Source: an uncultured Oceanospirillaceae bacterium
GTDB taxonomy: Bacteria > Pseudomonadota > Gammaproteobacteria > Pseudomonadales > Balneatricaceae
DNA: 64,000 nucleotides
NCBI GenBank assembly: GCA_913057435.1
Contig: CAJXNY010000007.1
Location: 1 to 64,000 of the forward strand
Reading direction: 5' to 3'
Shown here piece by piece: positions 57,840 to 60,919 of this stretch (its first letter is position 1; each line of letters begins with the position of its first letter). Position numbers and translations under genes: made by a program. The notes under the pieces are model-generated. The model was not told where the DNA came from. It did not search any database and was given only the letters and a program-made list of their open reading frames with translations.

Positions 57840-58901
57840 TTACAGATCCGGGTGGTTACGCAGAGTTTCCACCAGCGCTTCCATCTCCTGCTGAGTACCG
57901 ATGGTGATACGCAGGTAGTTATCAATACCGGGTTTGCTGAAATGACGCACCAGAATATTGTTACCGCGCAGATAACCCATCAGCTCAGCACCTTCGAGGA
58001 ACTTGTGCTGAGTGAACAGGAAGTTGGTGCACGATGGCAGGCTGTCAAAACCCAGCTGGGTCAGCTGCTGCGCCGTCCATTCCCGGCTGTCGATGATCTT
58101 CTGGTTGGTCTGCTGGAAATAGTCTTCATCCTGCAACGATGCCGTGGCACCGGCGATGGCCAGCATATCCAGCGGGTAGGAGTTGAAGCTGTTTTTCACC
58201 CGCTCCAGTCCATCAATCAGGTTTTTATGACCGATGGCGTAACCCACTCGCAAGCCTGCCAGTGAGCGAGATTTGGAAAAGGTCTGAATCACCAGCACGT
58301 TGTCATAGCGGTGAGTCAGGTCGATGGCACTGTCCGCGCCGAAGTCGACATAGGCTTCATCCACAATCACCAGTGACTCGGTGTTACGCTGCAGCAGCGC
58401 TTCAATCTCACTCAGAGGTAAGGCACAGCCTGTCGGCGCATTGGGGTTGGCAAAGATAATGCCACCATTGGGCCGATCATAGTCAGCCAGATCAATGCCG
58501 AATTCAGCCGTCAGCGGAATCTGCTGGTATTTGATGTCATACAGGTGGCAGTACACATCATAAAAACTGTAGGTCGTTTCCGGTAACAGCAGTGGCTGTG
58601 GCTGGCGGAAAAATGCCATAAACGCCAGTGCCAGCACTTCATCAGAACCATTGCCCACAAATACCGAATGTCGCTCAACGCCATGGTAAGCCGCCAGCCC
58701 CTCTTTCAATGCACTGCAATCCGGGTCGGAGTACAGGCGCAAACGGTCCTTATCAAAGCTGTTCAGCGCTTCGATGGCGGCCGGTGCCGGTGGGTAAGGG
58801 TTTTCATTGGTATTCAGTTTGATCAGGTTATCCACTTTCGGCTGTTCACCCGGGGTATAGGGGGTGAGATCCTTGATGGCATCGCTCCAGTACTTGCTCA
58901 T
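57840..58901 (-). CDS. hisC: histidinol-phosphate aminotransferase
   Basis: A 353-residue fold-type I aminotransferase. LDxNENPYPP is represented by KLNTNENPYPPAP, the PLP-lysine lies in VIQTFSKSRSLAGLRVGYA, and PNAPTGC and RITIGTQQEM are typical of HisC. It makes histidinol phosphate in histidine synthesis. The track ORF starts at 59066; ATG 58901 (MSKYWSDAIKDL) fits the family. It stands outside any his operon, so a HisC2/aromatic aminotransferase role is also possible. Confidence 0.93.
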   Translation of the reverse strand: MSKYWSDAIKDLTPYTPGEQPKVDNLIKLNTNENPYPPAPAAIEALNSFDKDRLRLYSDPDCSALKEGLAAYHGVERHSVFVGNGSDEVLALAFMAFFRQPQPLLLPETTYSFYDVYCHLYDIKYQQIPLTAEFGIDLADYDRPNGGIIFANPNAPTGCALPLSEIEALLQRNTESLVIVDEAYVDFGADSAIDLTHRYDNVLVIQTFSKSRSLAGLRVGYAIGHKNLIDGLERVKNSFNSYPLDMLAIAGATASLQDEDYFQQTNQKIIDSREWTAQQLTQLGFDSLPSCTNFLFTQHKFLEGAELMGYLRGNNILVRHFSKPGIDNYLRITIGTQQEMEALVETLRNHPDL

Positions 58902-58962
58902 GTTCTGCTTCTTCTGTCCGGTTAGTGCAAGCGCTCCAGCATAGCAGAGCAGGCCCCGGGCG

Positions 58963-59865
58963 TCAGTGGGTGTTGACCCAGGAGTGGTCCCGTAAGGTTT
59001 CCAGCATATGGTCGATAAACAACCGGACTCTGGGGTTAAGATGGCGACGACTGGGGTACAGTACATTGATGTCCAGCGGTGGTATCTGGTAATCGGCTAA
59101 CACCGGTTGCAACGCCCCGGCCTCAACCAGCCCGGCACAAAACTGATGAGGCAGACGGACAATACCCAGATCCTGTAAAGCCATCTCTCGCAAAAAGGTA
59201 ATACTATTCGCCCGCAAACGCCCTTCAAGCGGCACCGGCGCGCCCGCCTGCCAATTATTGAATGTCCAGCTGTTGTTATTACGCCGCATCCCCAGGCAAC
59301 TATGTCCGGCCAGGTCAGCCGGTGTAGAAAGCACGCACGCCTGGCTTAAGTACCCCGGCGATGCGTATAACCCTAACTCCATATCCGCCAACCGCCGTGA
59401 GATAAGTGTCGAATCATTCAGCGAACCAACCCGCACTGCCAGGTCAATCCCCTCTTCTATCAGGCTTACCAGGCGGGTGCTTAGCTCAACATCAACTTCA
59501 ATCAGCGGGAAGCGCTGCATAAAGCTGGCGACCACACCATTCATGATAAAAGCGCCCAGCTCGGGCGGCATGGTCAGGCGCAAGAGCCCACGGGGCTCAG
59601 TGTTTAACGCCGATACCTGGTCTCGAGTCTGCTCCAGCTCATCAATAAGTGGACGACAACGCTCGAACAGCGCTCGCCCTTCATCAGTCAGTTGCAGCTT
59701 TCGAGTTGAGCGCTGCAACAGGCGCACCCCCATTTCATCTTCGAGCTGGGCAATACGGCGGCTGATGGTGGATTTTTGCACGCGCAGGCTCTCACCGGCA
59801 GCGGTAAAGCTGCCTGTTTCTACTACACGAATAAAAAGACGAAGGTCATTCAGATTCATAGTCAT
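58963..59865 (-). CDS. LysR family transcriptional regulator (CrgA/DhcR-like)
   Basis: A 300-residue LysR protein. The N-terminus MNLNDLRLFIRVVETGSFTAAGESLRVQKSTISRRIAQLE is close to the subgroup with RSTRKLQLTDEG, and the rest is a normal effector domain. It lies 61 nt upstream of the hisC start on the same strand and is divergent from the secreted hydratase-like gene. The target is unknown. Confidence 0.9.
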   Translation of the reverse strand: MTMNLNDLRLFIRVVETGSFTAAGESLRVQKSTISRRIAQLEDEMGVRLLQRSTRKLQLTDEGRALFERCRPLIDELEQTRDQVSALNTEPRGLLRLTMPPELGAFIMNGVVASFMQRFPLIEVDVELSTRLVSLIEEGIDLAVRVGSLNDSTLISRRLADMELGLYASPGYLSQACVLSTPADLAGHSCLGMRRNNNSWTFNNWQAGAPVPLEGRLRANSITFLREMALQDLGIVRLPHQFCAGLVEAGALQPVLADYQIPPLDINVLYPSRRHLNPRVRLFIDHMLETLRDHSWVNTH

Positions 59866-60039: not shown

Positions 60040-60852
60040 ATGTATCGCTTTATTGCCTGGGCGACTTTTGGTTGCCTGATTAGCAGCACGGCGGGTGCAA
60101 TCAGCACCCCCTCTGTCGATCTGTATGTCGACCAGTATTTTACCCAAACACCGGTGGAAGTTTTCACTGACTTTGTTGACGCCGATGGCGCTTATGCCTT
60201 TCAACAACGGATTAACAATGCCTTTAAAGCACGCGGCCACAAAACCATAGGCTACAAGCTGGCACTGACCGGTAAGCCCAGACTGTTCGGTGCACCCGAC
60301 CCTCTACACGGGCACCTGTTCGATTTTATGCTGCGAAAAAACCATGCCAGCCTTTCGGCAAAGAGCTTTGTTAAACCACTGCTGGAACTCGAGCTGGCCT
60401 ATCAATTCAAAGCAGACTTTCTGCCACCCTTTACCACGCAGAAACTGGCATCTGCCATCAGTTCCGTAGCACCCGCAATCGAACTGGCCGACCTGGTCTT
60501 CAAACACCCCAAGCAGCTCAGCTGGCAGCAGGTTGCCGCCAGCGGTACAGGCGCACGACGGCTAATCATTGGTGAAGCTCGCCCCTTTACCTCATTGAAT
60601 CTGAATAACCAGCAAGCCGAAGCGCGCTGGAATGGCGAACCCTACACCCGCGGCTATAGCCGCAACGTAATGGGCGACCAGCAGCAGGCGTTAATTTTTC
60701 TGGCGCAAAGCCTGCATCGACAAGGCCAGAAAATCAAAGCAGGTGACTGGGTCATAACCGGCGCCATGAACAAAATGCTACCCGCTCGCCCCGGCAACTA
60801 CCGGGTTAATTTCGGTGCCCTGGGCGAGCTGGAATTCAGCCTGACACCCTGA
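60040..60852 (+). CDS. 2-keto-4-pentenoate hydratase-like protein with signal peptide
   Basis: A 270-residue protein of the MhpD/fumarylacetoacetate hydrolase-like fold. The N-terminus MYRFIAWATFGCLISSTAGA is a secretion signal (cut near AGA-IS), which is unusual for this cytoplasmic enzyme family. The MhpD pattern remains: KTIGYKLALTGKP, LELELAYQF (the E-x-E metal pair), PAIELADLVF (third acid), GTGARRLIIGE, and KAGDWVITGAM near the end. It may act on a periplasmic substrate or bind one. It is divergent from a LysR gene about 175 bp away. Confidence 0.8.
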   Translation: MYRFIAWATFGCLISSTAGAISTPSVDLYVDQYFTQTPVEVFTDFVDADGAYAFQQRINNAFKARGHKTIGYKLALTGKPRLFGAPDPLHGHLFDFMLRKNHASLSAKSFVKPLLELELAYQFKADFLPPFTTQKLASAISSVAPAIELADLVFKHPKQLSWQQVAASGTGARRLIIGEARPFTSLNLNNQQAEARWNGEPYTRGYSRNVMGDQQQALIFLAQSLHRQGQKIKAGDWVITGAMNKMLPARPGNYRVNFGALGELEFSLTP

Positions 60853-60880: not shown

Positions 60881-60919
60881 AAAAAGCCCGAGTGCAGCGA
60901 ACTGCACTCGGGCTTTTTA
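60881..60919. terminator. bidirectional terminator
   Basis: AAAAAGCCCGAGTGCAG and CTGCACTCGGGCTTTTT are perfect 17-bp arms around CGAA, between two convergent stops (60852 and 60941). It carries A- and T-tracts on the two sides. Confidence 0.93.

Follow-up and report, generated by a model that had tools for sequence, protein, structure and literature searches.

The gene at positions 60040–60852 of the window (the whole 64,000-nucleotide stretch of DNA analysed here) is predicted to be monocistronic and to encode an exported, metal-dependent enzyme of the FAH fold. This enzyme would act in the periplasm or attached to the envelope, its substrate probably being a keto-enol acid of the 2-oxo or beta-keto type. 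We assign this reading, which derives from comparative sequence analysis, a probability of roughly 0.62. FAH-superfamily enzymes in the papers cited here act inside cells or organelles (PMC10825186, PMC7115867). The original prediction had treated the protein as a one-off; our comparisons instead place it as one member of a broad clade of predicted exported FAH-fold proteins in Gammaproteobacteria, 33 sequences in our tree, most of them apparently exported.

60040–60852, plus strand: gene for the predicted exported MhpD-like (FAH-superfamily) protein of 270 amino acids, identified from the ORF list, NCBIfam, PDB and profile matches, an orthologue and codon differences.
60881–60919, no strand assigned: strong hairpin flanked by A and T tracts, a probable bidirectional terminator (-31.1 kcal/mol, z -7.5).
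58963–59865, minus strand: divergent gene for a LysR regulator (YafC-like group), not conserved beside the gene in the 57% identical orthologue L004.

The open reading frame begins with ATG and comprises 270 codons. A homologue, L001 from a Neptuniibacter MAG, is 95% identical. Of the codons that differ between the two genes, 36 are synonymous and 14 nonsynonymous; over codons 51–270, dN is 0.022 and dS 0.24. The synonymous excess and the lower dN establish that this is a real gene under purifying selection, to which the strong terminator at its end adds support. The hairpin stands between the gene and a convergent acyl-CoA dehydrogenase gene, and from this downstream terminator and the divergent LysR gene upstream we infer that the gene is a transcription unit of its own.

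The NCBIfam models for DmpH, DmpE, MhpD and HpaH match the window protein at 62–83 bits, far below their cut-offs of 350–409. The best of these is DmpH (83 bits, cut-off 350.55), while the MhpD and DmpE equivalog models score 64 and 73 bits. Likewise, the protein scores 15.9 bits against Pfam PF01557 (FAA_hydrolase), under the cut-off of 23.9 that is passed by its relatives L032 (27.3) and L034 (24.7), which indicates that the miss reflects divergence. Searched as a single sequence against the PDB, the protein matches NahK (E 5e-17) and MhpD (E 1.5e-13), and a profile of clade relatives finds MhpD at E 4e-43. Homology to solved members thus extends over the domain, and the metal triad and active-site lysine that define the MhpD-type branch of the FAH superfamily are present, indicating a divergent but real FAH/MhpD-type domain. 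An AlphaFold2 prediction from two sequences had a pLDDT of 35. Among plasmid records all matches fell below 60% identity, and those with annotation seen carry canonical names; PHROGs gave no match to the window protein.

To gather relatives, genomes were scanned at the level of class, order and phylum. Sequences were recovered that outscore the canonical enzymes, and a signal peptide or lipobox opens most of them. An IQ-TREE analysis (LG+C20) of 94 sequences places the window protein within the 33-sequence clade (support 98/95), whose Gln at the position of Pro204 it shares, with MhpD, DmpE and DmpH in another part of the tree. The high-scoring members in the samples searched are gammaproteobacterial, as is the window's genome; of the 399 genomes sampled across the phylum, none but G142 and that of the window itself exceeded the canonical level.

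60256–60258, plus strand: Lys73, equivalent to MhpD Lys60 by alignment.
60385–60393, plus strand: metal-ligand motif E116-L-E118 (MhpD E105/E107, record numbering) by alignment.
60481–60483, plus strand: third metal ligand E148 (MhpD E138) by alignment.
60541–60555, plus strand: S168-G-T-G-A172, aligned in place of the canonical D-N-A-S motif.
60673–60684, plus strand: G212-D-Q-Q215, a clade motif (GDQW-type) aligned in place of the canonical G-H/N-P.

With residue roles transferred by alignment at 21–30% identity, the earlier proposal that the MhpD-type fold and its E-x-E...E metal pattern are kept was borne out by the PDB and profile matches and by the metal-ligand comparison with MhpD. E116, E118, E148 and K73 align with E105, E107, E138 and K60, and we take the three glutamates to be the metal-binding residues of the family. 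Lys60 is conserved in 31/33 clade members, E105 in 32/33, E107 in 33/33 and E138 in 31/33, and the complete triad is found in 31. Other canonical positions have been replaced: Arg143 (60/61 non-clade sequences) and Asp157 (61/61) are lost in the clade, as is the Ser160 equivalent; Pro204 (61/61) gives way to Gln in 31 of the 33 members; and the hydratase Asp78, present in 38/61 non-clade sequences, occurs in none of the 33. The window protein has Leu, Val and S-G-T-G at the positions of Asp78 (PDxG), Arg143 and the DNAS motif, respectively. Asn158 is kept in 31/33 clade members and is Gly in the window's own genus.

Two known enzymes provide the closest comparisons. MhpD, the 2-hydroxypentadienoate hydratase of E. 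coli (b0350; PDB 1SV6, 2WQT), has in common with the window protein the FAH-type domain, Lys60 and the three metal glutamates at 21% overall identity; however, it lacks a signal peptide, is located in the mhp aromatic operon, and possesses Asp78, Arg143, the DNAS motif and Pro204, all four of which are absent here. DmpH/NahK, the 2-oxo-3-hexenedioate (4-oxalocrotonate) decarboxylase (PDB 5D2F–5D2K), is both the best single-sequence PDB match and the best NCBIfam model, and also lacks Asp78, but it retains the Arg143, Asp157 and Pro204 that the window protein has lost, has no signal peptide and is encoded in meta-cleavage operons.

In the FAH superfamily the metal holds the 2-oxo acid while a lysine and associated residues shift protons to give an enolate, as described for FAHD1 (PMC7115867). 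FAHD proteins interconvert the keto and enol forms of oxaloacetate, and tautomerisation has been proposed by the authors as the ancestral activity of the fold (PMC10825186). FAHD1/YcgM/YisK-type proteins (oxaloacetate tautomerase and decarboxylase), compared here by published description, share the superfamily chemistry of a metal-bound 2-oxo acid and a lysine proton relay with the window protein, but are described as mitochondrial or intracellular and belong to a different subfamily (PMC10825186). We propose that Sec would export the window protein, which would then work in the periplasm or, like its lipoprotein relatives, attached to the envelope. A divalent metal held by the three glutamates would chelate a 2-oxo-carboxylate, and proton transfer by the lysine would generate an enolate intermediate, as for other superfamily members. 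Retention of the triad and lysine is consistent with this core chemistry, and the lost residues argue against both the MhpD and the DmpH reactions. With the hydratase Asp, the Arg and the DN(A/S)S motif absent, hydration of 2-hydroxypentadienoate is probably not the net reaction; keto-enol tautomerisation, decarboxylation or C-C bond hydrolysis of an extracytoplasmic 2-oxo or beta-keto acid is more likely.

The original prediction had offered a new substrate or a ligand-binding role. Its first half is supported, a non-standard substrate being likely, whereas pure ligand binding is not favored with the lysine and glutamates conserved in about 31/33 members. Specifically, the protein could be a periplasmic binder or sensor that keeps the FAH fold and metal site to hold a 2-oxo acid with no turnover, perhaps linked to the LysR regulator. 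Loss of the Asp78, Arg143, Asp157 and Ser160 equivalents, the lack of pathway neighbors and a relative that has lost metal ligands (L058) all lend it some weight, but we regard it as unlikely: the lysine and all three glutamates persist across nearly the whole clade, conservation of the LysR gene does not extend even across the genus, and since LysR proteins are cytoplasmic, a periplasmic binder would need a transporter. The relative in question (L201/L058, G268:C28), itself an exported clade member, retains only one metal glutamate of the three and lacks the lysine; it is a candidate pseudo-enzyme. Given this loss and the Gly that replaces Asn158 in the window's genus, activity in every clade member is not certain.

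The suggestion that the divergent LysR may respond to the protein fared poorly. Outside the window, the regulator gene adjoins the FAH gene only in the near-identical L001 and is missing beside the 57% identical orthologue L004 (G001), where the gene faces hisC directly. The link is therefore unsupported, a LysR-linked operon was rejected, and the regulator is probably not a functional part of the system. A search for genes co-occurring with homologues, the check originally recommended, found no recurring operon partner among the loci of 39 relatives. A DUF2244 membrane-protein gene lies tail-to-tail with the exported FAH gene in 18/39 loci; many same-order relatives show this arrangement, with SIMPL, YbaK-like, RimO-like and RsmE-like genes nearby (DUF2244 and SIMPL assigned by Pfam, the others by sight). 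We rejected these neighbors as operon partners, as the arrangement looks like inherited position. MAPEG-family neighbors occur in only 2/39 loci; in these two distant relatives (L163:9981-10361 and L147:9598-10005) the gene for the MAPEG-family membrane protein both adjoins and overlaps the exported FAH gene.

A hisC-type aminotransferase gene is the nearest or second-nearest neighbor of the exported FAH gene in three places, the window (57840–59066), L166 of the same genus and the distant L147 (10047-11177), probably by chance. As listed, the window hisC frame extends well upstream, overlapping the last part of the LysR frame (58963–59865). Its homologue in L004 begins about 55 codons later (MSRYWSDA), so the true hisC start is probably an internal ATG.

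As originally noted, no aromatic pathway lies beside the gene. The same genome does encode a canonical catechol meta-cleavage operon on another contig (C52, L202), comprising catechol 2,3-dioxygenase, hydroxymuconic semialdehyde dehydrogenase, DmpE, acetaldehyde dehydrogenase, aldolase and DmpH. Its cytoplasmic DmpE and DmpH score 457 bits (cut-off 408.8) and 480 bits (cut-off 350.55), and since the pathway thus encodes its own canonical enzymes, we rejected the exported protein as its missing enzyme. The operon, together with the common fold and metal triad, would nevertheless accommodate an exported protein that still carries out the MhpD, DmpE or DmpH reaction on leaked aromatic-breakdown intermediates. 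This is improbable, somewhat more so than ligand binding, because the hydratase Asp78 is missing, as are Arg143, Asp157 and Pro204, which are common to hydratases and decarboxylases, and the loci examined have no link to aromatic genes.

An extracytoplasmic keto-enol enzyme, the reading we prefer, requires export, and the N-terminus fits a Sec/SPI signal peptide, as had been proposed.

60040–60099, plus strand: predicted Sec signal peptide, residues 1–20 (MYRFIAWATFGCLISSTAGA), with cleavage expected before I21, based on a fixed rule, an MYRF start and AxA-type site conserved in L004, and the alternative starts.

The N-terminus reads MYRFIAWATFGCLISSTAGA|ISTPS: a positive M-Y-R is followed by a hydrophobic segment free of charge and then by an A-G-A|I site. 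In the L004 orthologue, from a second species of the same genus, the MYRF start is retained and the N-terminus is MYRFSGCVVISALLFSAAAMA|APA; the positively charged n-region, hydrophobic core and AxA cleavage site are conserved in both L001 and L004. The signal peptide of the window protein is predicted from our own fixed rule and from conservation among relatives; 16% of 556 neighboring genes pass this rule, membrane proteins included. By this rule 20/33 clade members have a signal peptide compared with 1/58 other sequences (Fisher p 1.5e-10, which overstates independence as the rows are related). Inspection added four exported members (L113, L158, L175 and L179), giving a total of about 24/33. 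The seven members without a signal all belong to family f219 (including L170, L169 and L172), and L006 and L096 were placed in neither group. Export requires two changes on the tree, which fit one gain and one loss, the latter in the single family f219.

A downstream start yielding a cytoplasmic enzyme, named at the outset as the outcome that would overturn the prediction, is not favored. ATG 60040 is the earliest in-frame start codon past the upstream stop, and just two others precede the metal ligands, a GTG (codon 39) and an ATG (codon 97). That the protein is a normal cytoplasmic hydratase or decarboxylase, with an N-terminus that merely resembles a signal peptide or a start at the in-frame GTG, is very improbable even with signal-less relatives inside the clade, because an exported-type N-terminus is conserved at 57% identity, signal peptides or lipoboxes mark most of the clade and about none of the canonical group, and codon 39 has no Shine-Dalgarno sequence by eye, aligns with Ile in L004 and lies in an N-terminal helix region that a start there would remove.

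The exported branch is old enough to have reached many gammaproteobacterial families with its metal site kept and its diagnostic residues swapped. It points to as yet unnamed keto-acid chemistry outside the cytoplasm, and automatic names such as "2-keto-4-pentenoate hydratase" are probably wrong for it. We found no account of exported MhpD-like proteins in the open-access literature (subscription journals not covered). We tentatively suggest, at somewhat less than even odds, a widespread and previously undescribed subfamily of exported FAH-fold metalloenzymes in Gammaproteobacteria with a new extracytoplasmic 2-oxo or beta-keto acid reaction, which might, for example, be the periplasmic repair or removal of enol-oxaloacetate-like compounds.

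Several further relatives were observed. L198 and L199 (G642:C12 and G536:C23) come from genomes that also hold a clade member; they represent a second FAH-fold paralogue, of greater divergence, whose N-terminus (LFVLVAC) resembles that of a lipoprotein. The first ATG of L006 (G042:C267) is immediately preceded, in frame, by a hydrophobic stretch that has no conventional start codon before it, possibly reflecting an unusual start or an assembly error. Finally, L189–L195, from order-level genomes and outside the tree, are shorter relatives (frames of 237–254 amino acids) that lack a signal peptide and carry a KAGMT/GGPxxALxWML pattern.
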